A stretch of 32,193 nucleotides of DNA from Acidobacteriota bacterium (GTDB taxonomy: Bacteria > Acidobacteriota > UBA6911), in the NCBI GenBank assembly GCA_012729555.1, contig JAAYCX010000088.1, forward strand, positions 1 through 32,193, in the 5' to 3' direction. The position numbers and the translations under genes are program-made. The notes beneath the pieces were generated by a model. The model was not told the origin of the DNA and searched no databases. It saw only the letters and a program-made list of their open reading frames with translations. Shown here in pieces: positions 4,119 through 25,336 of the stretch. Each line of letters opens with the position of its first letter. The stretch's first letter is position 1.

Positions 4119-7100
4119 TCACCCCTCGGGAAGGGCCTCGCGCACCTTCCTTGCCAGGTCTTCTCTGCTGAAAGGTTTCTGGAGAAAGTGTATCCCCTGG
4201 TCCAGGATGCCGTGAGGGGCGATCACGTCGGCCGTGTAGCCGGACATGTAGAGAATCCCCATGCCCGGGTGCCGGGCTTTCAGGCGTTCGGCCAATTCCC
4301 GGCCGTTCATCCCCGGCATGATCACGTCGACGATCAGCAGGTCTATACCCCCAGCCTGTTCCGCCGCCGTCTCGAGCGCGGCCCCGGGATGGGCAGCCGC
4401 CAGCACCCTGTATCCCAGACCGGCGAGGGTTTTCCGGGCGAGCTTCAACAGCGCCGACTCATCCTCCACCATCAGGATGGTCTCCCCGCGGCCGGAGGGC
4501 AACACCGCCGGAGCCGGATCTTCGGATTCGCACTGGTTTCCGGCGTGTCGAGGGAGCCAGATCCTGAAAATGGACCCCCGCCCGGGCTCGCTCTCCACAT
4601 CGATGGAGCCGCCGTTCTGCCGAACGATGCCGTAGACCGTGGCCAGGCCCAGGCCGGTCCCCCGACCCACATCCTTGGTGGTGAAAAACGGTTCGAACAG
4701 ATTCTCGAGGGTCTCCCGGCTCATGCCGCAGCCGTTGTCGCTCACCGTCAGGAGCACATGGTCCCCGGTCTCCGGACCGGACCGGCCCCGGCGGTCGGGC
4801 TGCCCCGCGGCCATGTTGCCCGTCCGGATGGTGATCCTTCCCACCCCGTCGATGGCATCCCGGGCGTTGACCAGGAGATTGGCCAGAACCTGGTGGATCT
4901 GGGCCGGATCCATGTTCATCGGCCAGAGCCCCGCGCCCGGTTCCCACGACAGGTCGATGTCCTCGCCGATGAGGCGCCGAAGCATCTTGAGCATGCCCGC
5001 AACGGTCTCGTTCAGGTCGATGATCCGGGGAGAGATGGTCTGGCGCCGGGCGAAGGCCAGAAGCTGCCGGGTGATCTCGGCGGAACGGCGGCCCGCATCG
5101 AAGATCTCCTTCAGGGCTTCACGAACCGGATCCCCGGGTCCGACCTGGTCCAGCGCCAGTTCCGACTGGCCCATAATCACGTTGAGCATGTTGTTGAAGT
5201 CGTGGGCGACGCCTCCGGCCAGCCGGCCGACGGACTCCATCTTCTGGGCCTGGAGCAGCTGGCCCTGAAGCCTTTCCTTTTCGGCCTCCGCCTGCTTGCG
5301 CTCGACGATTTCGCCGATCAGCCGGGCCGAAACCGCCAGCCTCTTCTTGGCCAGTTCGATGATGAAGGGGGGCCGGGTTTCGTAGGCCTCCGCCGCCAGC
5401 CTGAGGGCGTCCCGATCCACCCCGTACCGATCCGCCAGTTCCCCGAGCCGGACCGGGTCCCGCGGCGGGTCGCCGAAACCGAAGTTGATGGCGCCCACGA
5501 TCTCGCCCCCGGCCCGTATCGGCACCCCGTACATGCGGATTCCGCCGTTGCAGGCGATTTCGACGGGCTTTCCGGTCTCCATGGCCTTTTTGGCGTTCTG
5601 GGTCCAGCAGGACTCGTGACACAGCCACCTGCCGCAGGCAAGCGCCTCCCGGTTGTCGTCGGTACCGCAGAGAGTGCGCGAAGCCCCGTCCATGAAGCGG
5701 CACCAGCCCGAGGAGAAAAGGCCCAGGGCGTAATCGCCGTTTTTTTCGTAGATAGCCGCGGATGTTTCCAGAAGATCCAGAAAATCGGAAGCGATATCGC
5801 GCAACAGGTCCTCGTCCACCGAACGCCGGATGAGGCCGTGATCGTTCAGCGCGGCGAGGCTTCCGTAGGACGGCTGATGAACGCCGCCGTCCCCGTTGGC
5901 CGGCCGGGTCGTGAGCAGCCATTCCAGGCGGCTCAGGGCGTCCCGCGATCGGATGTTCTCGACCGACTTCCAGACCGCGTCCATCAGGAGGGTCAGTTCG
6001 AGCTGATCGGTTTCGGTGTAGTCCGATTCCTTGTCGGCAACGCCCACCACGGCCACCGCCCTATCGCCGCATATCACGGGGATCGCCAGCAAGCGCGTCA
6101 ACGGGAGAGGACCCCCGGAACACCCCATCTCAGGCTGATACCCGGACGGGATTCCGTTGACCGCGACCGGTCGCCCACTCCGTACCGCTTCACCCCAGGC
6201 GCCGCCGTGGTCCAGCGCGCAGACGATCGGGGGCTCCGACAGGGGACAGCCCGGCGCCGGGTCCCCGGAGCGGGTGTTGAAGGTGAACTCCCGCCGTTCG
6301 TCGTCGTAGAAATAGACGTACCCGCACCGGCTCCGGCTGAGGGAGACGGCCTGGTCCAGCGCGTGATCCAGAAAATCCTGGACGTCCCGGGGCCGATATT
6401 GCAGGATTTCGACCATCGCCTTCAGCCAGGCCATGTTTCGCCGGTTTTGTTCCTCGGATACCTTCTCGCGCGTCGTGTCCTGGAAGATGGCGGCGAACTG
6501 TCCGGCATTGGGAGAAAAGGCCGTAACCTTGAAATGCCTGCCCAGTTCTCCGGCATATGCATCGAAGGTGACGGGTTCTCCGCTGCGGGCCACCCGGCCG
6601 AACGCTTCGATCCAGTACGGCTCGGTCCGCGGCAGGACCTCGAGCACCGTCCGGCCGACGACCCGTTCCGCCTTGAGCCCGGTCAGGCTTTCGAACGCCG
6701 GGTTGACGGCAAGAAACCGGTAATCCACCGTGCGGCCGTCTGCATCCTTGACGATTTCATGGAGGGCGAACCCGTCGAGCATCTTATGGAACAGGGTGCG
6801 GTAATCCTGCTCCATTCTGCGATGCGCGGTCACGTCGCGCGCGATGACCAGGACCGATTCGACCCTGCCCGCTTCATGCAGCTCCGGTATCAGGCGGCAG
6901 TTGAGGATAACCTCCCCCTGCCCGCCCGGGAGCCGGATCTCGTCCTCCAGGGGCAGGCCGCTCTGAATCACCTGCGGGAGGGATCGGTCCCAGAACCGGC
7001 ACACGGACTCGGGAAGCCCCAGCTCGCGGTGGGTTTTCCCGAGGCAGCGGTCAACGGAAAGACCCGTGATCTCGGCAATGTTTTCCGACGCAAACAAATA

Positions 7101-7943
7101 GCGGCCGGCGCCGTCCAGCCGGAACACTACGTCGGGAAGCCCCTCGACCAAGGCACGGTATTCGTTCCCCTGCTTCCGCAGGGCCTCTTCAAACCGTTTC
7201 CCTGCCGAAATATCGACGATCTGCGAGATGAAATAGGCGGGGCCGTCCTCTTCGTCCCGCACCAGGGAAACATCGAGGAGGGCCCAGATGGCATGCCCCT
7301 GCTTGTGGATGTACCGTTTTTCGATCTGGTAGGTAAAAATCTCCCCCGACAGCATCCGGGCGACCAGGGTCGTGTCCGGCTCGAGGTCCTCCGGGTGGGT
7401 GATATCCTGAAAGGTCCGCTCAAGCAGTTCCTCCTCCGAATACCCGAGCAGGTCGCACAGGGAACGGTTGACCTTGAGCCATTCGCCCCGGGGCGAAACC
7501 AGGGCCATCCCGATGGGGGCGTGCGTGAAGGCCCTGAAAAAGCGTTCCTCGCTCTCCCGCAGAGCCTCCACCATGCGGCGCTGTTCGGTCAGGTCGCGGA
7601 TAATGATGCTGCTCCGGGTGCGTCCATCAGGTCCATCAAAGAGCGCCGAAGAGACCAGCGCGGGGAAAACGGTGCCGTCGGCTTTTTTGCACCGCAATTC
7701 CCCGACATACCGACCGGTGCGTTGGCGCTGCGCGAGCGCCGGACCCAGCCTCGGATCCCCGGCATCCATGATAGCGCTCCGGCCGCCCTGGACGAGTTCC
7801 TCTTTCGTCATCTGGAACAGCTCGCAGGCCGCCCGGTTGGCGAAGAGGATCGGACCTTCGGGCCGGGTCAGGAAGATCGCGTCCAGGCAGTGGTCCACCA
7901 CGGCCTCATAGGGATTGTCCAGCCTGCGTTTCCTCTCCCGCAT
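4119..7943 (-). CDS. Hybrid histidine kinase with PAS, GAF and PocR sensors
   Basis: A 1274-residue, apparently soluble sensor kinase. In order: PAS domains at about 13-125, 130-250, 260-375 and 380-495; a GAF domain at about 510-660 ([22 protein letters not shown]); a PocR ligand-binding domain at about 690-865, with cysteines in [14 protein letters not shown] and the [13 protein letters not shown] block; a short coiled coil; HisKA with GGVAHDFNN (phospho-His about 914); an HATPase_c domain with [15 protein letters not shown] and GTGLGL; and a receiver domain with phospho-Asp about 1206 in [13 protein letters not shown] and Lys in KPFS. PocR domains are known to sense small organic molecules such as diols. 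No transmembrane segment is seen. A TTG start 15 bases further upstream is possible, but ATG at 7941-7943 has AGGGG at good spacing. No response regulator adjoins it, so its target is unknown. Confidence 0.93.
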
Positions 7944-9914: not shown

Positions 9915-12053
9915 ATGCATATGTCCAGATCCGATTGTAAGGCGATGGCGCACATCATCGTCCCCTACCTCCTTTTCGGCGGCCTGTGGATCCTCCTCTC
10001 CGACCGGCTGCTCGAGAGGATCGAGCCCGACCCGGCGCGGAGGGTCGAGTGGTCGATCTGGAAGGGGTGGGCCTACGTCCTGGTGACGGGGGTGCTGCTG
10101 GCGCTCCTTCTGTACCGGGTGCTCCGGGCGCGCGAACGGGACACCGCGGCCCTTTACGAGACCGACCGCCGCTTCTCCCTGGTCTTCCGCAAGAGCCCCA
10201 TCGCCATCGCCATCCTCCGGCTCCGCGACGGTCGTTTCATCGACGTCAACGACAGCTTCGTGCGCCTCACGGGGTACTCCCGGGAGGAGGCGCTCGGCCG
10301 TACGTCGGTCGAACTGGACCTCTGGGCGGATCCGGTGGAACGCGGGGAGGTCCTGAGGCGGGTGCGCGAGGACGGGCAGGTCCGGGCCATGGAGATCCGG
10401 ATCCGGCGCCGGTCGGGCGAGACCGTCCCGATGCTCTACGCGGTGGAGCGGATCGACATCGGCGGCGAGCCCTGCCTGATCGGGATGGCGCAGGACATCG
10501 CCGCCCGGAAGGAGCTGGAGGAGGAGCTGCGCTCGCGGCTGCAGCGCTTCCTCCGGGCGAGCCCGGCGGTTCTCTACGTGCTCCGCATCGAGGGGGAGCG
10601 GGTGCGGCAGGAGTGGATCAGCGAGAACCTGGAGCGGATCACGGGGTGGACCATGGCCGAATCGGGGGATCCCGCGTGGTGGTACGCGAACGTCCACCCC
10701 GAGGACAAGGAGCGGGTGCTCGAGGGGCGCGCGCGGGCGGCCGAGTGGTTCGGCAGGAGCAAGCTGCTCGAGTACCGCTTCCGGCACAAGGGGGGCGCCT
10801 GGATCTGGATCCGTGACGAACAGCGCTACCAGCCCGCCGAGGAGGGGGACTGGATCGAGGCGGTCGGAACCTGGATCGATATTTCCGAGCAGAAGAGGCT
10901 GGAAGCCAACGTCGTGCAGATGCAGAAAATCGAGACCGTGGGGATGCTGGCCGGCGGCATCGCCCACGATTTCAACAACCTCCTCTCGGTCATCCGGGGA
11001 TACACCGAGCTCGCGCTCGAGGAGGCGCCCCCGGGGGAGGCCGGGCGCGCCAACCTCGAGGAGATCGTGCGCGCCACCCGCCAGGCGGCGTCGCTCACCT
11101 CCCAGCTCCTGGCCTTCAGCCGCAAGCAGATCCTGCAGCCCGAGATCCTGAATATCAACGACGTGCTCCGGGAAACCAGCCGGATCCTCGAACGCCTGAT
11201 CGGCGAAAACATCGAGCTGCGGCTGCTGCCCCGCGCCGATCTGCCCCCCGTCAGCGCCGACCGCGGCCAGCTGCAGCAGATCATCATGAACCTGGCCGTC
11301 AACGCCCGGGACGCCATGCCCGAGGGGGGAAAACTCCTCATCGAAACGGGAGAGGCGCTGTTCGACGAGGAATACGTGCGCGGTCACTTCCCCGCCACCC
11401 CGGGAGGGTACGTGATGCTGGCCGTCAGCGACAGCGGCGCCGGCATGGACGCGGCGACCCAGGCCCGCATCTTCGAGCCCTTCTTCACGACCAAGGAAAA
11501 GGGGAAAGGAACCGGCCTGGGCCTGTCGACCGTCTACGGCATCGTCAAGCAGAGCAACGGGTTCATCTGGGTCTACAGCGAAACGGGCGGGGGGACGACG
11601 TTCAAGGTCTACCTCCCCCGGGTCGAAGGCGCCGCGGAGGCGGTGGAACCGGAGGTGCGCACCGGGTCGGGACTCGCGGGTTCCGAGACCATCCTGGTCG
11701 TCGAGGACGAGGCGCCGCTGCGGGACCTGGCCTGCCGCACCCTCGAGCGGAAGGGGTACTTCGTGATCCCCGCCTCCGACGGCGACGAGGCCCTGGAGAG
11801 GGCCGCGGCCCGAGCGGGAAGGATCGACATGCTGGTCACCGACGTGGTGATGCCCCGGATGGGGGGGAAGGAACTCGCATCCCGGATGAAGGAACGGTTC
11901 CCCGGTATCCGCATCCTGTACGTCTCCGGGTACACGGATCATTCCATCGTCCACCGGGGGATCCTGGACGAGGGGGTCGCCTTTCTGCAGAAGCCCTTTT
12001 CCATGGAGGGCCTGGTCCGGAAGGTGCGTGCGATCCTCGACGGAAACGCCTAA
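9915..12053 (+). CDS. Membrane-anchored hybrid histidine kinase
   Basis: About 712 residues. Two transmembrane segments frame a very short external loop (about residues 11-33 and 51-70), so most sensing is probably cytoplasmic. Then come PAS domains at about 83-198 (FIDVNDSFVRLTGYSREEALGR) and 208-325, HisKA with GGIAHDFNN (phospho-His about 351), HATPase_c (MNLAVNARDA, DSGAGM, GTGLGL), and a C-terminal receiver with phospho-Asp about 643 in MLVTDVVMPRMGG and KPFS. The kinase-receiver part is closely similar in layout to that of the 4119-7943 kinase, pointing to a common family. The start is uncertain: GTG 9873, ATG 9915, ATG 9921 or ATG 9945 are possible and none has a strong ribosome-binding site. 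Its stop overlaps the stop of the convergent cytochrome gene by four bases. Confidence 0.9.
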   Translation: MHMSRSDCKAMAHIIVPYLLFGGLWILLSDRLLERIEPDPARRVEWSIWKGWAYVLVTGVLLALLLYRVLRARERDTAALYETDRRFSLVFRKSPIAIAILRLRDGRFIDVNDSFVRLTGYSREEALGRTSVELDLWADPVERGEVLRRVREDGQVRAMEIRIRRRSGETVPMLYAVERIDIGGEPCLIGMAQDIAARKELEEELRSRLQRFLRASPAVLYVLRIEGERVRQEWISENLERITGWTMAESGDPAWWYANVHPEDKERVLEGRARAAEWFGRSKLLEYRFRHKGGAWIWIRDEQRYQPAEEGDWIEAVGTWIDISEQKRLEANVVQMQKIETVGMLAGGIAHDFNNLLSVIRGYTELALEEAPPGEAGRANLEEIVRATRQAASLTSQLLAFSRKQILQPEILNINDVLRETSRILERLIGENIELRLLPRADLPPVSADRGQLQQIIMNLAVNARDAMPEGGKLLIETGEALFDEEYVRGHFPATPGGYVMLAVSDSGAGMDAATQARIFEPFFTTKEKGKGTGLGLSTVYGIVKQSNGFIWVYSETGGGTTFKVYLPRVEGAAEAVEPEVRTGSGLAGSETILVVEDEAPLRDLACRTLERKGYFVIPASDGDEALERAAARAGRIDMLVTDVVMPRMGGKELASRMKERFPGIRILYVSGYTDHSIVHRGILDEGVAFLQKPFSMEGLVRKVRAILDGNA

Positions 12054-14203
12054 TCCGGGCCCGGGCGCCCGTCCCCGGGCGCTTCTTCCTTCGCCGCTTT
12101 CAGCCGTTCGAGTTCCAGCGGGTAGTGCTCGGCCATTTCCGCCTCGGAAATCTTCCCCGTGATCCATACGGTGCTCATCGGGTAGGCGGTCGGGCTGAAG
12201 ATGACGAAATAGAAGTGCCAGACGACGATGCTCAGGGTGGCGAGCACCGCCTCGTAGAAGTGGATGGTGCGCGCCACGTCCCAGGCGAGCTTCGACCAGA
12301 GCGCCATGAAATAGTCGTCGAAGGTCATGACGACGCCGGTGGCCGCCATCACCATGACACCCCACACCAGGGCCCAGTATTCGGCCTTCTCGAAATAGGT
12401 GAAGCGCGCGAAGAGCGGCTTCCGGCCGCGGAGGCCGGTCATGTAGAGGAGGTTCCGGGCGACGTCGCGCGCGTCTTTCCAGCGGGGCCAGATGTCGCGC
12501 CGGAACCGTCTTCCCTTCTCCGTGAACAGGAGGCAGAGGACGTGGCAGAGGCTCAGGGCGATCATGCCGAATCCCGCGATCCGGTGCAGCACCCCGCGCA
12601 CGTCGAAAAAGCTCTCGCAGCACCCCCTGATCGGGGCCACCCACCAGGCGTCCGGGTAGCGCAGCATGAAGCCGGTGACGGCCAGGATGACGAAGCTCGC
12701 CGTCATCGCCCCGTGCTGCAGCCGGTCCCCGAGCGTCATCCTCTCGTAATGGATCTCCGCGGCCGCGTGCTCCGCCGCGGCCGTGCCCCGCAGCAGCGCC
12801 CGCCTGCGGCGCGTTTTCTTGATGAAGTCGAGGAGGTTGTGCAAAAACATCCCGCCCACGACGACGGCGATGAGGTAGAGATAGAAGGCGCGGATCCAGT
12901 AGAGGATCCCGCTTTCGGGGTCGCGGGCCTCGACGACGTGTACCGCCCCCCGGGCGAAATTTTCGTTGGCGCCCGGATGACAGGAGCCGCAGGTGGCGGC
13001 CAGGTTGGAGCTGTGGACCGTGGATGCGGGGTCCGAGGAGGGGAGGATGTCGTGGACCCCGTGGCAGCTCGCGCAGTTGGCCACCTCCACCGATCCGGCG
13101 CGCGAGGCCAGGCCGTGAAAGCTGTCGTTGAAGGTGGAGAAGCGGTCGGCGTCGATGCCGTACTTCCGGGTGAGCCGGAGCGAATCGTGGCAGGAGGCGC
13201 AGATTTCGACCGAGACGTTCACGGCCGCCACCGGGGAGCGCGCGTCCCCGACGCGGTAGATGTGGTGCTGCCCGTGACAATCGGTGCAGGTGGGGGAATC
13301 GCCGACCCCCTTTCCGACCGCCCGCCCGTGAACGCTCGCCTTGTAGGTCCGGGCGATCTCGGCGTGACAGCGCCCGCAGGTGTCCGCGATGTTCCAGCGG
13401 CTGACGCGCGAGGCGGAGTCCCTGGCCGTCCGGGTGTCGTGGGCGCCGTGGCAGTCGCTGCACGCGGCGGCGTCGAGGTTGCCCGCCGCGAGCGCCTCGC
13501 CGTGCACGCTGTCGAGGTACCCGGCCATGAAGGCGGCGGGGAATCCCACTTCGGTCCGCACCGTTTCGTCTTCGAGGTGGCACTTCAAACAGAACGCCGG
13601 CTCCTTCGTCTTGTAAAGGACCGCTTCGGGGTTGTCCCGGGCAAGGATGGCGTGGGAGCCGTGGCACTGGAGGCAGCCGGGGGATTTTGCGTTCTCCTTC
13701 CCCAGCGCCAGCCCATGGGCCGACTCCCGGTACCGGGCCGCGGCCTCACCGTGGCAGCGCCCGCAGCCGACATCGGCCCTCAGGCGGTGGTTGACCGACT
13801 TCGGATCTTCCGGGGAAAGAACGTCGTGGGTGCCATGGCACTCCTTGCAGCCGGCCGCCGGCCCGCCCCCCCCGCCGCCGGGGGAACGGCCGTGCACGCT
13901 CCCCTCGTACCCTTCGGTCTCGTGGCAGCTTTCGCACCGCACCGGGCGGATGACGGCCGCATGCGGGATCTTCATCGGCTCGAGCCCCGTGTGGCACCGC
14001 GCGCAGGCGAGCGACCCGTGCGCGGAGGATTTGAGTTTCGCCCCGTCGACAAAGAGAGACACCCGCCGCCCGCGCCGCTCCATCTCTAGCGAGGGGTTGC
14101 TGTGGCACATCGTGCACGGGTCCGATCCCTGGCCGTACAGCTGCAGCGCCGTTAACAGGGGCAGGAACCATACCGCGCGCCACCACTTCCGGGATCGGAT
14201 CAT
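12050..14203 (-). CDS. 13-heme cytochrome c fused to b561-type membrane cytochrome
   Basis: A 717-residue protein. After a signal-anchor (WWRAVWFLPLLTALQL), residues about 28-415 carry thirteen CXXCH heme c motifs, from CTMCH near 30 to CGSCH near 410, several followed by GxHD/GxHxI pairs as in NrfH/NapC-like and octaheme families. The last 300 residues contain about five membrane helices with well-placed histidines (LHNLL, QHGAM, LHRIAG, CHVLC, IHFYE, WHFYF), matching a di-heme cytochrome b561/FdnI-type domain. Such fusions (for example CbcL of Geobacter, which has fewer c hemes) pass electrons from the quinone pool to periplasmic carriers, often in metal or extracellular electron transfer. 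That role is inferred here. AGGA precedes the ATG by eight bases. It is expressed alone; no cytochrome maturation gene is nearby. Confidence 0.92.
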   Translation of the reverse strand: MIRSRKWWRAVWFLPLLTALQLYGQGSDPCTMCHSNPSLEMERRGRRVSLFVDGAKLKSSAHGSLACARCHTGLEPMKIPHAAVIRPVRCESCHETEGYEGSVHGRSPGGGGGGPAAGCKECHGTHDVLSPEDPKSVNHRLRADVGCGRCHGEAAARYRESAHGLALGKENAKSPGCLQCHGSHAILARDNPEAVLYKTKEPAFCLKCHLEDETVRTEVGFPAAFMAGYLDSVHGEALAAGNLDAAACSDCHGAHDTRTARDSASRVSRWNIADTCGRCHAEIARTYKASVHGRAVGKGVGDSPTCTDCHGQHHIYRVGDARSPVAAVNVSVEICASCHDSLRLTRKYGIDADRFSTFNDSFHGLASRAGSVEVANCASCHGVHDILPSSDPASTVHSSNLAATCGSCHPGANENFARGAVHVVEARDPESGILYWIRAFYLYLIAVVVGGMFLHNLLDFIKKTRRRRALLRGTAAAEHAAAEIHYERMTLGDRLQHGAMTASFVILAVTGFMLRYPDAWWVAPIRGCCESFFDVRGVLHRIAGFGMIALSLCHVLCLLFTEKGRRFRRDIWPRWKDARDVARNLLYMTGLRGRKPLFARFTYFEKAEYWALVWGVMVMAATGVVMTFDDYFMALWSKLAWDVARTIHFYEAVLATLSIVVWHFYFVIFSPTAYPMSTVWITGKISEAEMAEHYPLELERLKAAKEEAPGDGRPGPD

Positions 14204-14398: not shown

Positions 14399-14413
14399 TG
14401 GCACACCGATTGC
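14399..14413 (+). promoter_or_regulatory. Sigma-54-type (-24/-12) promoter
   Basis: TGGCACACCGATTGC matches the RpoN consensus TGGCAC-N5-TTGC, with exactly ten bases between the GG of the -24 box and the GC of the -12 box. Transcription would start near 14425, leaving about 60 bases to the ATG of the ECF sigma gene at 14486. An NtrC-class sigma-54 activator is encoded 3 kb downstream at 17377, and the direct repeat TGGACTATYCT occurs upstream at 14204-14214 and 14270-14280. Consensus match and spacing are seen; activity is inferred. Confidence 0.6.
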
Positions 14414-14485
14414 GTCTTCCCCGCCGGAGATCGGCAGAATCGGCGATTCCGCCCCATCCGCCGGTCCCCTTTTCTCGGAGCGCCT

Positions 14486-15202
14486 ATGCAGCAAGCCACA
14501 TGGACCCATTCGAACCTCCAGGACAAGATCCTGATCCGACAAAGCCAGAAGGGGGATCAGCGCGCCTTTGAAGCGCTGATGCGCAAGTACCAGCCCCAGC
14601 TCTCCAGCCTGGTGTGCTGGCACGCGGGGCCGGCGGCCGACGCGGAGGACATCGTTCAGCTGATCCTGTGCAAGGTCTATTTTTCGCTGAAGAAATTCGA
14701 CCTCAACCGCCCCTTCTACCCCTGGCTCCGGCGCATCGCCGTCAACCGCTGTTTCGACGAACGGCGGCGCCTCCGGCGGCGCAAGGCCTACACCTTCGCC
14801 GAACTGGAGCTGGAGGAATCCACGATAGACACCCGCCGGCCGCGGGCCCTGCCCGACCCCTACGCGGAGGATAACCGCACGGACCTGGGCGAGATGCTCC
14901 GGGAGGTGCTCAACCAGCTGCCGGACGAGTACCAGGAGGTTATCGTGCTGCACCACCTGAAGCAGCTGCCCTACGAGGAAATCGCGCCGATCTTGCGCTG
15001 CACCCCGCAGGCCGCCAGGGTGAAGGCGTGCCGCGCCCGGGCCGCCCTCCGGCGCCTGTTGATGGAATCGTGCCAGGAGATCGCCGAAAACTTCTCCTCC
15101 TCCAACCTGATGCGCATCCTCGACGCCTGCTGCCGCCGGCAGCCCCGGCGGGTGCCCCAGGTCAGCGAAATGCGCCGGGACCTCGTTCTGTGCAATTCCT
15201 AG
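14486..15202 (+). CDS. ECF-type RNA polymerase sigma factor
   Basis: A 238-residue sigma-70 family factor of the extracytoplasmic-function class. Region 2 (about 15-90) includes LIRQSQKGDQRAFEALMRKY, AEDIVQLILCKVY, and the DNA-melting helix FYPWLRRIAVNRCFDERRR. Region 4 (about 135-195) has LNQLPDEYQEVIVLHHLKQL, PYEEIAPIL and the recognition helix TPQAARVKACRARAALRRLL. There is an unusual tail of about 45 residues after region 4 containing four cysteines, including a CC pair. The start ATG has GGAG seven bases before it. No anti-sigma gene follows; instead an exported protein and a two-component pair come next on the same strand. A sigma-54-like promoter precedes the gene, so this sigma factor may itself be switched on by an enhancer-binding protein. 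Confidence 0.9.
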   Translation: MQQATWTHSNLQDKILIRQSQKGDQRAFEALMRKYQPQLSSLVCWHAGPAADAEDIVQLILCKVYFSLKKFDLNRPFYPWLRRIAVNRCFDERRRLRRRKAYTFAELELEESTIDTRRPRALPDPYAEDNRTDLGEMLREVLNQLPDEYQEVIVLHHLKQLPYEEIAPILRCTPQAARVKACRARAALRRLLMESCQEIAENFSSSNLMRILDACCRRQPRRVPQVSEMRRDLVLCNS

Positions 15203-15240
15203 GGACGGGACCGCTTTTCTTTCCGGCGGCCGCCGATAGT

Positions 15241-15248
15241 GGTATATA
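15241..15248 (+). promoter_or_regulatory. Extended -10 element before the exported protein/kinase/regulator operon
   Basis: TGGTATATAA (TG at 15240-15241, hexamer TATATA at 15243-15248) is an extended -10 about 30 bases before the ATG at 15279. No clear -35 box is present. It would serve the exported protein, kinase and response regulator genes together, and could also be a target of the ECF sigma factor made from the preceding gene. Confidence 0.4.
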
Positions 15249-15278
15249 AAGGGAAGTCACCCGGAAGCGGTACAGACG

Positions 15279-15902
15279 ATGCAGATACGGAAGATGACCA
15301 TGATTCTGGCGCTCGGCCTGGCGGCCTGCGCCCTGGCGGCGTCCGCCCCGGCCCAGGCCCCCGAGATTCCCGAGGCCTGGCCCGACGGGGCCAAGGGCTG
15401 GCCCAGGCCGGACTGGATGGAACTGACCGCCAAGCGGCTCGATAAGGCGAGAGAGGCGCGGCCGCCCGGCCCGGAGATCGCCTTGCTCCACGCGAAGGCC
15501 ACGGACCTCCTCGAGCGCGCCAGGCGCTCCACGGACAACCGGTTCCGGTTCGAGCGGCTCATCGCGGCCGTCAACAGCCTGCTCGACGCCGCCGACCGGG
15601 TCGCGTGGGCGCGCAAGGTGGAGCGCACCCCCCAGGACAAGGACTTCTGGGGAGCGGGATTCGTGCTCCAGGGGTGCTACTTCCGGGTCCGGCAGGCCGA
15701 ATATTTCGCCACCCTCACCGAGGACAACAAATCGGAGCAGTATGTCACCCTGGCCCGCAGCCTCTACCAGCAGGGGCGCGGCGCCTACGACGCACGGGAA
15801 TACCAGCGCGCACGCCTGCTGGGCGACGCCTCCTCCCTGATCGTGTTTTCGCTGGAATGCATAGCTCAGGCCACCATTCCCGATCCCCACATCTACCGAT
15901 AG
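15279..15902 (+). CDS. Exported helical protein encoded ahead of a two-component pair
   Basis: A 207-residue protein I do not recognise. The N-terminus (MQIRKMTMILALGLAACALA) is a signal peptide; LAAC could be a lipobox, giving a lipoprotein, or cleavage may follow SAPAQA near residue 26. The mature part is mainly charged, amphipathic helix with many Arg, Glu and Ala and resembles helical-hairpin or tetratricopeptide-like envelope proteins; one Cys occurs in LQGCYF and one near the C-terminus. ATG codons at 15294 and 15300 are alternative starts, the latter with a better-spaced GGAAG. It is followed after 6 bases by the histidine kinase gene, so it may feed a signal from the envelope to that kinase, as ZraP does for ZraS; that comparison is a guess from gene order, not sequence. 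Confidence 0.7.
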   Translation: MQIRKMTMILALGLAACALAASAPAQAPEIPEAWPDGAKGWPRPDWMELTAKRLDKAREARPPGPEIALLHAKATDLLERARRSTDNRFRFERLIAAVNSLLDAADRVAWARKVERTPQDKDFWGAGFVLQGCYFRVRQAEYFATLTEDNKSEQYVTLARSLYQQGRGAYDAREYQRARLLGDASSLIVFSLECIAQATIPDPHIYR

Positions 15903-15908
15903 GTGCCC

Positions 15909-17387
15909 ATGCGCTTCCCCGCACCCGTCAGCTTCCGCGCGCAGGCGTTCATCATCGGGGCGGCCTCCCTGGCCGTTGTCGCGCTGGCGGCGCTGATCGT
16001 GCGCGATGTCGTGTTCACGACCGAGGCCAAGCTCCTGGGGGACGCCCTGCGCCGCTGCGAAACCGCCTGCCGGGAACTCGCCAGCCAGGTCCGGGAACGC
16101 GCGGCCTATGCGGGCGATCCCCTCGAGCAGCTCCCCCGGCAGGCCCTGGAGATTTCGCTCAAGGGGATCTCCTCCACCGTTCTCCAGGCTTTCCCCGGGA
16201 TCAAGGGGGGGATGTACCTGCCGGCCGAGGACGCCGTTTCGGGGTATGCCTATCCCACCGCGGAGGAGGAGCCCGAAGCGCGCCCCGGCCTCTCGGGGAT
16301 GGAGACCGACTTCATCCGTACCCTTGCCGCCCGGGCCGGGGCTGCGGATGCCATGGTCAGCGGCTCGGACTGGGAGAACCGCGACCTGATCGTCGGCGCC
16401 GCCGTCCGGTCGGGCGGCATGGTCCTGTGGACCCTGCGCCGCGTCCCGGTGCTGCGCTACCCCCTGATCGGCACGCACCGCTGGTGGCTGATCGCGCTCG
16501 GGTTCTCGACCCTGCTGGGCGTGGGCGGCATCGTCTCCATCTGGTACCGGCTCCATTCGGGCGTCCGCTCCATTCAGAAGGGGCTGCGCCGGCTGGAGGA
16601 CGACTTCTCCTTCCGCCTCCCCTCGGTGCGGGGCGACCTGGGCCGGGTCGCGCGCGACATCAACCTGATGGCGGAGCGGCGCATGGCGCTCGAGCAGAAG
16701 CTGCGCCAGCAGGACCGGCTCGCCGCCCTGGGTAAGGTCGTCAGCGGCGTCGCCCACGAGGTCCGCAACCCGCTCAACTCCATCAAGCTGACGCTGCAGC
16801 TGCTGGAGCGGCGGCTGAAGAAGGGGGTGGCCGCCTCGACCGAGGTCGCCGAATGCCTCGAGGAGATCGACCGGCTCGACCTGATCGTGGGCCGCCTCCT
16901 CGCCTTCGGCCGCCCGGTGATGACCCACCGGCACGTACAGGACATCGCCCCCGTCGTCTCGCAGGCGGTCAAGATGGTGCACGAGCCGATGCAGAAGAAG
17001 GAGGTCCGCATCGACCTCGACCTGCCGCGCGGGGAACTCCGGGCCGATGTCGATGCGCCCCAGATCGTTCAGGTCCTGATCAACCTGCTCCTGAACGCCA
17101 TCGACGCCTCCCCCCGGGAGGGGGTCGTCACGGTCCGGGCCGAGGCGGAGGGCGGCCGGGTCTCGATCCGGGTCGCCGACGGCGGCAGCCGCATCCCGGA
17201 CGAGGTGCGTCCCCACGTTTTCGACGCCTACTACACCACCAAGGAAAACGGGAGCGGGCTGGGCCTGGCCGTCTCCCGCGAAATCGTGGCCAACCACGGC
17301 GGCTCCCTGCAGTTCGAGTCGGAGGATCCGGGCACGACCTTCATCCTCACGCTGCCGGAGGAAAGGGGGGCGTCGGATGCGGCCTAA
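15909..17387 (+). CDS. Membrane sensor histidine kinase (NtrB/ZraS-like)
   Basis: A 492-residue kinase: transmembrane helix at about 12-32, an extracytoplasmic sensor region of about 155 residues, second helix at about 190-212, HAMP linker to about 262, HisKA with VSGVAHEVRNPLNSI (phospho-His 283), and HATPase_c with INLLLNAIDA (N396) and GSGLGLAVS. The G1 box is unusual: ADGGSRIP has Arg where the second Gly of D-x-G-x-G normally stands, which may lower ATP binding. The H-E-x-x-N-P-L form of the His box is that of kinases paired with NtrC-type regulators, and such a regulator gene follows with an 11-base overlap, so the two are translated together. A GTG six bases earlier is an alternative start; ATG at 15909 is preferred. 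Confidence 0.92.
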   Translation: MRFPAPVSFRAQAFIIGAASLAVVALAALIVRDVVFTTEAKLLGDALRRCETACRELASQVRERAAYAGDPLEQLPRQALEISLKGISSTVLQAFPGIKGGMYLPAEDAVSGYAYPTAEEEPEARPGLSGMETDFIRTLAARAGAADAMVSGSDWENRDLIVGAAVRSGGMVLWTLRRVPVLRYPLIGTHRWWLIALGFSTLLGVGGIVSIWYRLHSGVRSIQKGLRRLEDDFSFRLPSVRGDLGRVARDINLMAERRMALEQKLRQQDRLAALGKVVSGVAHEVRNPLNSIKLTLQLLERRLKKGVAASTEVAECLEEIDRLDLIVGRLLAFGRPVMTHRHVQDIAPVVSQAVKMVHEPMQKKEVRIDLDLPRGELRADVDAPQIVQVLINLLLNAIDASPREGVVTVRAEAEGGRVSIRVADGGSRIPDEVRPHVFDAYYTTKENGSGLGLAVSREIVANHGGSLQFESEDPGTTFILTLPEERGASDAA

Positions 17388-18738
17388 AGCGTCCATTCTC
17401 ATCGCCGAGGACGAGGCGCAGGCGCGCGAGGCGCTCCGCGCCCTGCTCGAGGACGAGGGCTACCGCGTGCTGTGCGCCTCCGACGGCACCGAAGCCTCCC
17501 TCCACCTCGCCCAGTCCGCGGTCGAGGCGGCGCTTCTGGACATCCGGATGCCGGGGAGGGACGGGCTCGAGCTGCTGCGCGAGCTGAAGCTCCATCCGGC
17601 CCCCCCCGCGGTCCTGATCATGACGGCCTACGGAACCAGCGCGGCCGCCATCGAGGCGATGGCCCTCGGGGCGTTCGATTACCTGACCAAGCCGCTGAAT
17701 TTCGACGAACTGCTGATCCAGCTCGAGCGCGCCATCGACAACCGCAGGAAAACCAGCGAGCTCGAGGCCTACCGCAGCGAAGAGGACGCCGGGCCGGGGC
17801 ACGAGATCGTCGGCCGGAGCCCGGCCATGCAGAAGCTGTACAAGCTGATCGGCCAGGTGTCCGCCACCGACTCCACGGTGCTCATCCGGGGGGAGTCGGG
17901 GACGGGAAAGGAGATGGTCGCCCGCGCCATCCACCGCCACAGCCTGCGCGGTTCGCGCCGGCTGGTCAAGGTCAACTGCGCCTCCATCCCGGAAACGCTG
18001 CTCGAGGCGGAAATGTTCGGCCACGAGCGCGGGGCCTTCACCGGCGCCGCCCAGCGCCGGATCGGCAAATTCGAGTACGCGGCCGGCGGCACTCTCTTCC
18101 TCGACGAGATCGGGGAACTGACCCCCTCCACCCAGGTCAAGCTGCTGCGGGTGCTGCAGGAGTTTTCCATCGAGCGCCTGGGGTCCAACATCACCATTCC
18201 CCTCGACGTGCGTTTGCTGGCCGCCACCAACTGCGACCTGGAGCTGGCCGTACGCGAGGGGCGCTTCCGCGAGGACCTCTATTACCGCCTCAACGTCGTC
18301 ACCATCGCCGTCCCCCCCCTCCGCCAGCGGCGCGAGGACATCCCTGAACTCGCGGCCTACCTGCTCCGGCGCGCCGCGGCGCGCCTGAAGATGCAGCCCC
18401 CCACTCTTTCGGAGGACGCGGCCGGGTATCTCGCCGGGCAGGAGTGGCCCGGAAACGTGCGCGAACTGGAGCACTGCCTGGAGCGGGCCCTGATTCTGGG
18501 CCGGTCGGGAGTGCTCCGGCGCGAACACGTGGCGCTCGATGCGCCGCCGGCGGCCGACGACGCGATCAACGGCTTCCCGCTCGAGGAAGGGCTGCACGCG
18601 GCCGTCGCCCGACTCGAGCGCGGGATGATCGAACGGGCCCTCGCCGCCTCGGGCGGAAACCGCACGCGGGCGGCCGAGATCCTCAGGATCCACCGCCGCC
18701 TCCTGTACGACAAGCTGCGCGAATACGGGCTGGACTGA
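17377..18738 (+). CDS. Sigma-54-dependent NtrC-family response regulator
   Basis: A 453-residue three-domain regulator. Receiver at 1-120 with phospho-Asp 55 in AALLDIRMPGRDG and Lys 105 in LTKPL. AAA+ ATPase at about 140-375 with Walker A GESGTGKE (K178), the GAFTGA loop (219-224) that touches sigma-54, Walker B LFLDEIGE (D243/E244), and the arginine-rich RFREDLYYRL block. A Fis-type helix-turn-helix occupies about 413-450 (ALAASGGNRTRAAEIL). All parts needed to open sigma-54 promoters are present. It overlaps the kinase gene, its likely phosphodonor. A sigma-54-type promoter lies 3 kb upstream before the ECF sigma gene and is the obvious candidate target. The stop is nine bases from the stop of the convergent SDR gene, with no terminator between. 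Confidence 0.95.
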   Translation: MRPKASILIAEDEAQAREALRALLEDEGYRVLCASDGTEASLHLAQSAVEAALLDIRMPGRDGLELLRELKLHPAPPAVLIMTAYGTSAAAIEAMALGAFDYLTKPLNFDELLIQLERAIDNRRKTSELEAYRSEEDAGPGHEIVGRSPAMQKLYKLIGQVSATDSTVLIRGESGTGKEMVARAIHRHSLRGSRRLVKVNCASIPETLLEAEMFGHERGAFTGAAQRRIGKFEYAAGGTLFLDEIGELTPSTQVKLLRVLQEFSIERLGSNITIPLDVRLLAATNCDLELAVREGRFREDLYYRLNVVTIAVPPLRQRREDIPELAAYLLRRAAARLKMQPPTLSEDAAGYLAGQEWPGNVRELEHCLERALILGRSGVLRREHVALDAPPAADDAINGFPLEEGLHAAVARLERGMIERALAASGGNRTRAAEILRIHRRLLYDKLREYGLD

Positions 18739-21140: not shown

Positions 21141-22589
21141 GTGACCCACATCGCCCCCCTGCTGCACATCCTCGGACGCTTTCTCGTGGCGCTGGCGGCC
21201 GTCATGGGCATCCCGCTCGGCTACGCCCTCGCGATCGGCGACCCCCCCCTCCCCTTCGCCGGCGCCGTCGCCGCCACCGCGGGAGCGGGACTGGTCCTGG
21301 TCTTCTCCACCCGCCGCCCCAGGGGAGACCTGACGCAGCGGGAAGCGCTGCTGCTGGTCGGCATGGTGTGGGTCGCCACGGGCCTTCTCGGCTCCCTCCC
21401 CTTTTACCTCTCCCCCCATTTCCCGTCCTTCACCGACGCCTTCTTCGAATCCACTTCGGGGTTCACCACCACCGGGGCCACCGTGCTGGCCGACGTCGAG
21501 GTCCTCTCCCACAGCCTGCAGTTCTGGCGCTGCTTCTCCCACTGGCTGGGGGGGATGGGAATCGTGGTGCTCGGAATCGCCGTCCTGCCGCTGGTGGGGA
21601 TCGGCGGCATGCCGCTGTACCGCGCCGAATTTTCCGGCGCCAAATCGGAAAAGATCCGCCCCCGCATCCGGGAGACCGCCCTGGCCCTCTGGAAGATCTA
21701 TTTCGGGCTGACGGCCGCGCTCTATCTCGCCCTGCGCTGGGCGGGGATGGACCCGTTCGAAGCCCTCTGCCACGCCTTCTCGACCCTGGGAACCGGCGGC
21801 TTCTCCACCCGGACGGCCAGCATCGCGGCTTTCGGAAGCCCCAGGATCGAGGGGATCCTCATCCTCTTCATGCTCCTGGCGGCCGTCAACTTCACCCTCC
21901 ACTACCGGCTCTGGGTCGAGCGCCGCGTGAGAGGCTTCCTCTCCGATATCGAGCTCCGTTTCTTTCTCGGCGTGGTGGCCCTGGCGACGGCGGCGATCCT
22001 GGTGGCCCTCCTTCCCGGCGGCGGGCTGACCCCGTCTGAGGCCCTGCGCCGTTCCCTCTTCCAGGTCACCTCCATCATCACCACCACCGGCTTCGTCACG
22101 GCCGATTTCGAGGCGTGGCACCCGTTCCCCCAGCAGGTCCTGCTCCTGCTCATGTTCATCGGGGGCTCTACCGGATCGACCGCGGGGGGGCTGAAAGCGT
22201 CGCGCGTCCTCCTGCTCCTGAAGGTGATCGGGCGCGAATTCAAGCGCCTGGTCGAGCGCCGCGGCGTCTTCGCGGTCCGGCTGGGGTCCGCGGCCTATCC
22301 CGAAAACGCGATCCAGGGGCTCCTGAACCTGGTCTACCTGACCTTCCTGGTCTATTTTACCGGCTGCCTGCTGCTGACGGCGGCGGGGGTCGACCTCCTG
22401 ACCGCCGTGAGCGCCGTGCCGGCCAGCATGTTCAACATCGGCCCGGGGCTGGGGGCCGTGGGCCCGGCCGATCATTACGGCCATCTCCCGGCCCTGGCCA
22501 AGTGGGTCCTCGGCCTCTGCATGATCGCCGGGAGGCTCGAGTTCTACACCGTCCTGGTCCTGTTCACCCCCGCCTTCTGGCGGCGTTGA
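21141..22589 (+). CDS. trkH: Trk potassium transporter TrkH
   Basis: A 482-residue membrane protein of the TrkH/KtrB family, with about ten to twelve hydrophobic segments. All four pore loops of the K+ selectivity filter are visible: STSGFTTTGATV (about 108-119), STLGTGGFST (about 214-223), ITTTGFVTADF (about 314-324) and FNIGPGLGAVG (about 431-441). The start is a GTG eight bases after the trkA stop, without a strong ribosome-binding site, which fits translational coupling to trkA. TrkA-TrkH form a gated K+ channel in the inner membrane. The GH43 gene follows only 11 bases after the stop. Confidence 0.95.
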   Translation: MTHIAPLLHILGRFLVALAAVMGIPLGYALAIGDPPLPFAGAVAATAGAGLVLVFSTRRPRGDLTQREALLLVGMVWVATGLLGSLPFYLSPHFPSFTDAFFESTSGFTTTGATVLADVEVLSHSLQFWRCFSHWLGGMGIVVLGIAVLPLVGIGGMPLYRAEFSGAKSEKIRPRIRETALALWKIYFGLTAALYLALRWAGMDPFEALCHAFSTLGTGGFSTRTASIAAFGSPRIEGILILFMLLAAVNFTLHYRLWVERRVRGFLSDIELRFFLGVVALATAAILVALLPGGGLTPSEALRRSLFQVTSIITTTGFVTADFEAWHPFPQQVLLLLMFIGGSTGSTAGGLKASRVLLLLKVIGREFKRLVERRGVFAVRLGSAAYPENAIQGLLNLVYLTFLVYFTGCLLLTAAGVDLLTAVSAVPASMFNIGPGLGAVGPADHYGHLPALAKWVLGLCMIAGRLEFYTVLVLFTPAFWRR

Positions 22590-22600
22590 CGGAGGTCCCG

Positions 22601-24127
22601 ATGAAAGCAAAACTGGCAGTCTGCGCCCTTTCCCTTTTCCTGCTCCCCGCCGCCCCCGGCCGGGACGGCAGGATCCTGCCCTGGGGAGACCAGGGGGACG
22701 GGACCTACCGCAACCCCATCCTGAAGGCGGATTATTCCGATCCCGACATCATCCGCCATGGCGACGACTTCTACCTCATCGCCTCCGATTTCCACTTCGT
22801 CGGCATGCAGGTGCTCCATTCGCGCGACCTCGTCAACTGGACCGTCGTCGGCCAGGTGTTCGACCGCCTGGATATGGATCCGAAATATGACGCCATGAAG
22901 GGCTACGCCCAGGGGACCTGGGCCCCCGCCGTCGGCCGTCACGACGGGACCTTCTACATTTTTGTCTGCACCCCCAGGGACGGACTGTTCATGTGGCATG
23001 CCCCGGACATGAGGGGGCCCTGGTCGAAAACGGTCACGGTCCGCGCCGTGGAGGGGTGGGAAGACCCCTGCCCCTTCTGGGACGAGGACGGGACGGCCTA
23101 TCTCGTCCGCAGCCAGGTGGGCGCGGGTCCCCTCATCCTCCACCGGATGAGCCCGGACGGGACCCGCCTCCTCGACGAGGGGCGAGAGATCTACCGCGGC
23201 CCGGTGGCCGAGGGGCCCAAACTGTTCCGGCGCGGCGGGTACTATTACATTTCCCTCCCCGAGGGGGGGGTCGAGCGCGGCGGACAGACGGTCCTGCGCT
23301 CGAAAGACATCTACGGCCCCTACGAACGGCGCGAAGTCCTCCCGCCCGGGAGCCCCCACCAGGGGGGGATGGTGACGCTCGAAAACGGGGAGGGCTGGTT
23401 CGTGGGCTTCAAGTCCTCCGGGCACCTCGGCCGCATCTGCCACCTCCTCCCGGTGCATTGGACGGAGGAGGGATGGCCCGTCTTCGGCGACGGGGGAAAA
23501 ACGGTCGACCGCCATCCCAAGCCCGATGTCGGCCGGATCTACCCGGTCCGGCGCCCGGAGACGGGGGATGAATTCGAAGCCCGGACCCTCTCCCCCATCT
23601 GGCAGTGGAACCACAACCCGGACCCGGCGCGCTGGTCGCTTTCCGCGCGCCCCGGCTGGCTGCGGCTGACCGCGCTACCCGCACCATCCCTGGCCGAGGC
23701 GCCGAACACCCTGACGCAGAAGCTCTGGGACGACGCCGGGGTGGTGGACGTCGAGATGGACGCCGCCCGCATGAGCGAGGGGCAGCGCGCCGGTTTCGCC
23801 TTCATGAGCGGCAGCGACTTCGGCTGGATCGGGGTCCAGCAGCGCGACGGGGCCCGCCGCATCGCCTGGGAAGGGGGCGCCGGCCCCGTGCTCCGGGGCG
23901 ACCGGGTCTGGCTGCGGGGGCTCTACGAGGGGGACCGGGGGCGGCTCCTGTACAGCCTCGACGGGCGGACGTTCGCCGAAACCGGCGCGGCTTTCCAGCT
24001 CCGTTTCCGCCACTGGAAGGGGGCGCGCATCTCCGTGTTCAGCTACGGTCCCGGGGGCGGGGCCGCCGACTTCGACTACATCCGCTACCGCCCGGGCCCG
24101 TCGCTGGACGCCCTCGGCGGGCGCTGA
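22601..24127 (+). CDS. Exported glycoside hydrolase family 43 (xylosidase/arabinofuranosidase type)
   Basis: A 508-residue exported enzyme. The signal peptide covers about residues 1-20 (LAVCALSLFLLPAAPG). The five-bladed GH43 catalytic domain spans about 35-320, with the usual acidic triad: general base D47 in YSDPDII, pKa-tuning D155 in WEDPCPFWDEDG, and general acid E204 in VAEGPKLF. A C-terminal beta-sandwich (about 325-500, with FEARTLSPIWQWNHNP and GFAFMSGSDFGWIGV) matches the accessory domain of bacterial beta-xylosidases. It removes xylose or arabinose from xylan oligomers; the exact specificity cannot be read from sequence. GGAGG lies eight bases before the ATG. It sits between trkH and a GH10 xylanase, with 11- and 12-base gaps, so co-transcription is likely. 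Confidence 0.92.
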   Translation: MKAKLAVCALSLFLLPAAPGRDGRILPWGDQGDGTYRNPILKADYSDPDIIRHGDDFYLIASDFHFVGMQVLHSRDLVNWTVVGQVFDRLDMDPKYDAMKGYAQGTWAPAVGRHDGTFYIFVCTPRDGLFMWHAPDMRGPWSKTVTVRAVEGWEDPCPFWDEDGTAYLVRSQVGAGPLILHRMSPDGTRLLDEGREIYRGPVAEGPKLFRRGGYYYISLPEGGVERGGQTVLRSKDIYGPYERREVLPPGSPHQGGMVTLENGEGWFVGFKSSGHLGRICHLLPVHWTEEGWPVFGDGGKTVDRHPKPDVGRIYPVRRPETGDEFEARTLSPIWQWNHNPDPARWSLSARPGWLRLTALPAPSLAEAPNTLTQKLWDDAGVVDVEMDAARMSEGQRAGFAFMSGSDFGWIGVQQRDGARRIAWEGGAGPVLRGDRVWLRGLYEGDRGRLLYSLDGRTFAETGAAFQLRFRHWKGARISVFSYGPGGGAADFDYIRYRPGPSLDALGGR

Positions 24128-24139
24128 GGGAGGAAGGGC

Positions 24140-25336
24140 ATGCATAGGATCGGACTGCTGGCCCTCGGGCTTCTCGGCGCCTCCGCCGTGTGCGGCGCCT
24201 CCGCCGTGTGCGGCGCCCTCGCCGTGTGCGGCGCCCTCGGCGCCCGTTCGGACCCCGACGCGGGCGGCACCCTGAAGGAGGCCTACCGCGACGCGTTCCT
24301 GGTCGGCTGCGCGGTCAATGACGCCATCGCGTCGGGCAGGGACAAGGCGTGGGGCGATGTCGTGCTGCGGCACTTCAACACCCTCACCCCCGAGAACGCG
24401 ATGAAGGCCGAAGCCGTCAACCCCCGCCCCGGCGTCTACAATTTCGGGCCGGCGGACGCCTTCGTCGATTTCGCCGAAAAAAGCGGCATGTTCGTCGTCG
24501 GGCACACCCTGGTGTGGCACAACCAGACGCCCGACTGGTTCTTCACCGACGGCGGGGGGAAGCCGAAGACGCGCGCGGCCCTGATCGAACGGATGCGCGA
24601 GCACATCGAGGCGGTGGCGGGACGCTACGCCGGGAGGGTGGACGCCTGGGACGTGGTCAACGAGGTGATCGCCGACGACGGCTCCTACCGGCCGACGCGG
24701 TGGGTCGAGGGGGTGGGGGACGGCGACCTGCTGGTGAAGTCGGCCTTCCGGTTCGCCGCCCGTTACGCTCCCGGCGCGGAACTGTACTACAACGACTTCA
24801 ACGCCTGGCGCCCGTCGAAAAGGGACGGCATCGTGCGGCTGGTGCGGATGCTGCAGCAGGAGGGGATCCGGATCGACGGTGTCGGGATGCAGGGGCACTG
24901 GGGGCTGCATTATCCCCGGACCGAACATGTCGAGGCGGCGATCGACGCCTACGCGGCGCTCGGCGTGAAGGTGATGATCACCGAACTGGACGTGGACGTG
25001 CTCCCCCTGACGCGCGAGGGGCAGGTCATCGGCAGCGTCATGAGCCACGCGCAGTTCCAGCTCGAGGAATTCAAGGCCTTCCTCGACCCGTACGCCGGCG
25101 GCCTGCCCGAAGGGGTCGAGAAGCAGCTGGCGGACCGTTACGAAACGCTCTTCCGGATTTTCCACGGCCGGCGCGACAAGATCGACCGGGTCACCTTCTG
25201 GGGGGTACACGACGGCATGTCGTGGAAGAACGACTATCCGGTCCCGGGGAGAACCAACTATCCCCTGCTCTACCGGAGGGACGGACGGCCCAAACCGGCG
25301 CTCGACCGCCTGCTGCGCCTCCCCTCTAGCCGGTAG
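24140..25336 (+). CDS. Exported GH10 endo-1,4-beta-xylanase
   Basis: A 398-residue endoxylanase. The catalytic TIM barrel (about 45-395) carries acid/base E175 in WDVVNEVI and nucleophile E282 in ITELDVDV, plus conserved LTPENAMKAE, GHTLVWHNQTP and YYNDFN blocks. It cuts the backbone of xylan; the GH43 encoded directly before it would trim the products. The N-terminus is odd: after MHRIGLLALG the signal segment consists of GASAVC-type hexapeptides repeated three times, from an 18-base tandem repeat, which puts three cysteines in the hydrophobic core. It is unclear whether one acts as a lipobox. GGGAGGAAGGG precedes the ATG. The last 11 bases overlap the end of the convergent symporter gene. 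Confidence 0.95.
   Translation: MHRIGLLALGLLGASAVCGASAVCGALAVCGALGARSDPDAGGTLKEAYRDAFLVGCAVNDAIASGRDKAWGDVVLRHFNTLTPENAMKAEAVNPRPGVYNFGPADAFVDFAEKSGMFVVGHTLVWHNQTPDWFFTDGGGKPKTRAALIERMREHIEAVAGRYAGRVDAWDVVNEVIADDGSYRPTRWVEGVGDGDLLVKSAFRFAARYAPGAELYYNDFNAWRPSKRDGIVRLVRMLQQEGIRIDGVGMQGHWGLHYPRTEHVEAAIDAYAALGVKVMITELDVDVLPLTREGQVIGSVMSHAQFQLEEFKAFLDPYAGGLPEGVEKQLADRYETLFRIFHGRRDKIDRVTFWGVHDGMSWKNDYPVPGRTNYPLLYRRDGRPKPALDRLLRLPSSR
24176..24235 (+). repeat. 18-base tandem repeat in xylanase signal peptide
   Basis: Three consecutive 18-base units (24176-24193, 24194-24211, 24212-24229) and the first bases of a fourth. The first two are identical (GGCGCCTCCGCCGTGTGC); the third differs at two positions. 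Units are a multiple of three, so gain or loss keeps frame and only alters the length of the signal peptide core. Confidence 0.85.

Follow-up and report, generated by a model that had tools for sequence, protein, structure and literature searches.

A gene on the minus strand of a 32,193-nt stretch of Acidobacteriota DNA (the window) raises the question of how its product exchanges electrons with the quinone pool, and whether it does so alone. A sequence-only reading had described the gene as a thirteen-heme c-type cytochrome fused to a di-heme b-type membrane domain, and had proposed a self-contained electron exit route. We computed the architecture, heme-ligand conservation, fold, clade and genomic context of the protein. 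From sequence comparison and structure models, it is quite probably a CbcL-like inner-membrane menaquinol:periplasmic cytochrome oxidoreductase. It belongs to an already described protein class, and the idea that the system is unusual or self-contained finds no support.

Gene model and domain architecture

The open reading frame starts with ATG, encodes 717 amino acids and has exactly the extent described earlier; sequence, Pfam matches and alignment identify it as a CbcL/MtrH/MtoC-like 13-heme c-type cytochrome with an FdnI/HydC-like b-type membrane domain (12050..14203, minus strand, as are the parts that follow). Residues 1-26 form a signal-peptide-like stretch (14126..14203; cleavage site approximate), seen in the sequence and in the model, which places a helix at residues 5-21. 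Next come the periplasmic c domain with its 13 CXXCH motifs (residues 27-428; 12920..14125), delimited by motif count, alignment and model, and a first long membrane helix (residues 429-471; 12791..12919) that carries the invariant H455 according to model and alignment. The Pfam order is cytochrome c7/c3 repeats followed by PF01292 (Ni_hydr_CYTB; E 7.9e-14; residues 487-669; 12197..12745), a b-type domain also recognized by FdnI alignment and fold match. The AlphaFold2 model of the full protein (mean pLDDT 79.8, pTM 0.54) has five C-terminal membrane helices and the N-terminal signal helix.

The window has a G+C content of 66%, and the cytochrome gene is overlapped by ORFs of 654 and 1311 aa on the opposite strand or in another frame. 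The 13-heme ORF is nevertheless a real gene, because all 13 motifs are invariant over 46 aligned rows. Longest-ORF gene calling misses the cytochrome both in the window and in the related locus L010, where the overlapping ORFs are longer. Genes were called with a codon-usage caller, whose training set includes the window's own genes and whose scores are rough; few or no genes were called by it in some other loci. The own genome gave one whole-protein match only, and its one other PF01292 gene, on contig C11, encodes an FdnI-like 210-aa subunit.

Hemes of the periplasmic c domain

The 13 CXXCH motifs lie between residues 30 and 409; shuffled residues (n=2000) contained 0.05 on average and never more than 2. 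Two N-terminal hemes come first, then five two-heme repeats, and a single membrane-proximal heme completes the series. A motif scan of the 717-aa protein returned no CXXCK, CX3CH or CX4CH, and the mark of NrfA-type nitrite reductases, a CXXCK catalytic heme, is absent from it. Across 46 aligned full-length proteins with 13 or 17 hemes, in which the relatives share 42-88% identity with the window protein, the 13 motifs never vary, and neither do 12 other histidines of the c domain (46/46 rows). H184 supplies a thirteenth candidate distal ligand in the window protein, where every heme thus has a candidate distal His, as fits all-bis-His electron-transfer hemes. This residue is His in just 23 of the 46 rows, so that one heme may be without a distal His in many homologs.

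Modelled alone (pLDDT 84.3, pTM 0.79), the c domain matched the HAO-family octaheme 4n4j (Z 8.0) and, as well as HAO, the decaheme MtrA (6r2q_A; Z 7.5, 213 residues, 24% identity). In the full model, a region of approximately residues 160-422 matched HAO-family 4n4n_E (Z 8.7, 191 residues, rmsd 3.5 A). Foldseek found nothing below E 0.001 for the c domain alone among the matches listed (best E 0.01). The modelled resemblance to HAO and MtrA is distant and, while compatible with a heme wire, is not proof of one, as a Z near 8 can reflect merely a common arrangement. The 717-aa protein scored 46.4 bits against the DmsE/MtrA-type decaheme profile TIGR03508 (curated cut-off 192.2).

The membrane b domain

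E. coli FdnI, the gamma subunit of formate dehydrogenase-N, is the best structural match of the b domain (1kqf_C; Foldseek E 2.9e-4; VIA Z 16.2, 205 residues, rmsd 2.7 A). H497, H540, H648 and H663 align with H18, H57, H155 and H169 of the annotated K-12 record, which we take to be the b-heme ligands of FdnI, and in the b-domain alignment His fills these positions in 159/159, 159/159, 155/155 and 152/152 ungapped rows, respectively. Together with the 13 CXXCH motifs and PF01292, the FdnI fold and the four FdnI-equivalent histidines bear out the thirteen-heme c and di-heme b description, and fold, ligands and domain order agree that the fusion is quinone-linked. The cationic loops at residues 456-490 and 561-602 fit the cytoplasmic side. 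Unlike the window protein, FdnI has no c domain, and the formate dehydrogenase gamma profile TIGR01583 gave the 717-aa protein 46 bits against a curated cut-off of 115.85.

Unexpectedly, two further membrane histidines have no counterpart in FdnI: H455 in helix 1 (His in 130/132 ungapped rows) and H554 in helix 3 (138/159). Position 554 is Gln in sixteen rows, of which 15 make up an entire 11-heme clade and the other is L123. Where the b domain is a split subunit, the 19-heme partner carries a His in the equivalent motif of its C-terminal helix (23/25 cases). H455 and H554 could mark a third functional site beyond those of FdnI, either a distinct quinone site or a third b heme, that is kept in the split proteins, and the 13-, 17- and 19-heme proteins would then be a mechanistically distinct quinol-oxidising module; we regard this as distinctly unlikely. 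If it were true, the module of Ignavibacteria may act with the adjacent Rieske/cytochrome b pair and deliver both quinol electrons to heme wires.

Place in the CbcL/MtrH/MtoC family

As given in the excerpts of the family survey used here (PMC6295460), homologs of CbcL, MtrH and MtoC come from 15 phyla (with 2 homologs from Acidobacteria, 2 from Ignavibacteriae and 1 from Calditrichaeota among them), have 3-23 CX2CH motifs in 416-1034 aa, mostly six (4-6) predicted helices and a C-terminal membrane part with conserved membrane histidines, and catalyse quinol oxidation and/or quinone reduction. The window protein has the length, the C-terminal helices and the FdnI-like b domain of this family, and its 13 hemes fall within the published range, so that the number is not unusual. 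That known fusions carry fewer c hemes, as had been noted from the sequence, is correct for Geobacter CbcL, whose nine c hemes are all bis-His according to the portion of PMC9129911 used, but does not apply to the family as a whole. By published description, the protein otherwise resembles G. sulfurreducens CbcL in its N-terminal periplasmic multiheme c domain and C-terminal HydC/FdnI-like diheme b domain (PMC9129911; PMC6295460, both in part). MtrH and MtoC of Rhodoferax, Dechloromonas and Gallionella are placed in the same family in the survey excerpts, which describe them as often encoded with mtrAB/mtoAB (PMC6295460), whereas here MtrA/MtrB-like genes lie on a different contig. Parts of PMC12307469, PMC7399161 and PMC5317091 provide further context.

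Relatives were collected by a scan of species-representative genomes, from which the best 80 of 127 were used. A 13-heme b-domain ORF is present at 57 of these best 80 loci. Other relatives have 9, 11, 17 or 19 hemes, and the numbers are nearly always odd, as two-heme repeats combined with one membrane-proximal heme would give; the exceptions are truncated ORFs and a small number with 10, 14 or 18 hemes. No plasmid-borne relative was matched in the plasmid collection.

A quick IQ-TREE analysis of the b domain (159 rows, SH-aLRT support only) left out 20 loci repeating the same gene or genome and two of 161 selected sequences that cover too little of the b domain. All 61 13-heme rows, with two truncated members, fall on one branch (SH-aLRT 94) that spans Acidobacteriota, Ignavibacteriota and Bacteroidota/Chlorobiota. 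Its sister is a 17-heme group of mostly Calditrichota and Kryptonia (joining branch 95), and the 9- and 11-heme proteins lie outside both. The 19-heme proteins and split b subunits mostly form a separate group (98), with one 19-heme row, L116, placed elsewhere, while FdnI is far off on a very long branch. This placement assigns the protein to a lineage of multiheme/b fusions; a position among tetrathionate or nitrite reductases was not found in this tree, whose outgroups are FdnI-type only. The 13-heme clade is not singled out in the excerpted family survey (PMC6295460). A CbcL-like quinone-linked wire is now placed in an uncultivated acidobacterial genus, and the clade-specific heme number makes the gene usable as a marker, if the function holds.

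Partner genes at related loci

The 13-heme form is one clade across several phyla, with partner genes in most lineages and none beside the window gene. Partner genes were counted at 13-heme loci with enough downstream flank (at least 6 kb for the combined count), using queries taken from L027, itself among the loci counted. Outside Acidobacteriota, a 19-heme paralog lies downstream at 26/39 loci, a split b subunit at 25/36, an NapC/NrfH-like hexaheme at 26/32, a Rieske protein at 17/31 and cytochrome b at 14/31; at least one of the first three is found at 29/32. For the same five types, the downstream counts at Acidobacteriota loci are 0/3, 0/2, 0/2, 0/2 and 0/2. A 19-heme or split-b relative lies upstream in two family members, G012 and G014 (the latter on the same contig as L013). 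The Ignavibacteriota and Bacteroidota homologs, for example those at L027, L017 and L082, are like the window protein in being 13-heme members of one clade (approximately 43-51% identical over nearly the full length), but unlike it they sit with the 19-heme paralog, split b subunit and NapC-like hexaheme, often with Rieske and cytochrome b.

In L027 (7926-18100) and similar Ignavibacteriota loci, genes for the 13-heme/b fusion, 19-heme protein, split b subunit, NapC-like hexaheme, Rieske, cytochrome b, an 11-heme protein and a c554-like tetraheme occur together. This cluster resembles a module for quinol oxidation that is wired to multiheme cytochromes.

Proposed electron-transfer route and alternatives

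The C-terminal helix bundle, with its two b hemes in an FdnI-like arrangement, would exchange electrons with the menaquinone/menaquinol pool, menaquinone being the presumed partner and quinol oxidation the presumed main direction. Electrons would leave the b heme on the periplasmic side for the membrane-proximal c heme (residues 405-409, immediately ahead of the first membrane helix) and then travel down the 13-heme arm in the periplasm until they reach soluble or outer-membrane cytochromes, the putative periplasmic partners. The modelled protein ends in the periplasm, and exit through the outer membrane therefore needs other proteins. Porin-cytochrome genes, which the sequence-only reading had suggested seeking elsewhere in the genome, do exist: contig C40 (L125 4223-8748) encodes in a row a UshA-like tetraheme, a DmsE/MtrA-type decaheme (226.2 bits; curated cut-off 192.2) and, directly after the decaheme, an MtrB_PioB porin (E 1.6e-61). 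By sequence, this row is an MtrA-MtrB-type outer-membrane conduit, and it may be one onward route in the source organism. The proposed self-contained exit is not supported by these observations: the protein ends in the periplasm in the model, an MtrA/MtrB-like pair is encoded elsewhere in the genome, and partner cytochromes adjoin in relatives. Nor is coupling to MtrAB obligatory. Among ten 13-heme genomes examined in the genus and family, MtrA is above cut-off in 6 and MtrB in 4, and G005 (99% complete) and G006 (97%) keep the 13-heme gene with neither; absences, here and throughout, are limited by MAG completeness. The ten include G013, whose 13-heme gene (L227 626-2706; G013:C282) is spread over two reading frames, being either broken or affected by a sequencing error.

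On the acceptor side, a different destination is conceivable, in which the 13-heme protein feeds a periplasmic reductase, such as an HAO-like octaheme nitrite or nitrogen-oxide enzyme, and not extracellular acceptors. Its own genome has two HAO-like octaheme genes of approximately 425 aa, P0002 (C3; L126 5657-6934) and C44:62283-63524, whose products are 63% identical, and G005 and G006, which lack the Mtr conduit, keep one. Proteins of the P0002 type (E <1e-100) are, however, also encoded in G007-G009, where the 13-heme protein is not present at full length, and the search detected none in G012-G014, where it is. An HAO-like octaheme as the specific partner was rejected, there being no specific co-occurrence with the 13-heme gene in these six genomes, and we hold the broader periplasmic destination to be somewhat unlikely. 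It is very improbable that the HAO-like c domain houses a catalytic heme and makes the 13-heme protein a quinol-dependent multiheme reductase in its own right. The alignment with HAO-family structures and the inconstancy of H184 speak for such a role, and against it stand the candidate distal His at every heme of the window protein, the lack of CXXCK and an MtrA wire that matches equally. As a separate observation, most genomes in the genus encode strong relatives of the HAO-like octahemes.

Electrons might also flow in the opposite direction, with the protein acting as a quinone reductase that passes electrons from the periplasm or the outside to the quinone pool, as MtoC does in Fe(II) oxidisers. 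The closest solved fold is indeed that of FdnI, which itself reduces menaquinone. A weak counterpoint comes from the closest named relatives among the best 80 of 127, which we take to be MAGs from an anoxic spring and a digester, habitats that fit anaerobic respiration better. The family is found in organisms that reduce Fe(III) as well as in ones that oxidise Fe(II), and by the survey's account, comparing CbcL, MtrH and MtoC brought out no feature that tells quinol oxidisers from quinone reducers (PMC6295460). On balance, we judge the reverse direction unlikely and favor the CbcL-like oxidation of menaquinol. If this function holds, quinone-linked extracellular or periplasmic respiration is predicted in these organisms.

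The own genome also encodes, on contig C15 (L130 5063-8669), a pentaheme QrcA-like protein beside a fused QrcB/QrcC-like protein of 990 aa, which probably form an alternative complex III. With such a complex, aerobic oxidation of quinol would not have to run through the 13-heme protein.

Neighborhood of the gene in the window

The cytochrome had been said to stand alone. This is true insofar as no second multiheme gene was called in the window by codon usage, but a regulator operon is adjacent, and relatives have redox partner genes. On one side, a convergent PAS hybrid histidine kinase (9915..12053, plus strand; Pfam and gene call) has a stop overlapping that of the cytochrome, and its neighbor in L010 is 91% identical. 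On the other side, a divergent operon (14486-18738, plus strand) encodes an ECF-type RNA polymerase sigma factor (14486..15202; Pfam/profile and gene call), a 207-aa exported-looking protein without a Pfam match (15279..15902; gene call and relatives search), a membrane sensor histidine kinase (15903..17387; Pfam and gene call) and an NtrC-type sigma-54-activating response regulator (17377..18738; Pfam). A sigma-54 -24/-12-like site (14399..14414, plus strand) in the divergent intergenic region faces the operon; it is the only match in the window of a pattern based on what we take to be the consensus, and is present too in L010 and L011.

The order of cytochrome and regulators is kept in four of the seven congeners with the gene (window, L010, L011 and L069), the other three having 7.8, 5.6 and 2.8 kb of upstream sequence. 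The 207-aa protein was found only in this family of Acidobacteriota (8/100 relatives). It adjoins the cytochrome in the same four, lies elsewhere in G002, G012 and G014, and is also found in G008, a genome without a full-length 13-heme gene. The operon as a fixed partner of the cytochrome thus only partly holds, with the marker beside it in 4/8, and control of the cytochrome gene by this neighboring set of ECF and two-component regulators is a guess, since the marker is also found away from it. Between the window and L010, the response regulator is 97.6% identical and the cytochrome 87.7%, the regulators being more conserved. Elsewhere in the window are a very large sensor kinase in which many PAS, GAF and PocR domains accompany a receiver domain (4119-7943, minus strand), and adjoining GH43 and GH10 glycosyl hydrolase genes (22586-25336), which suggest xylan use by the host.
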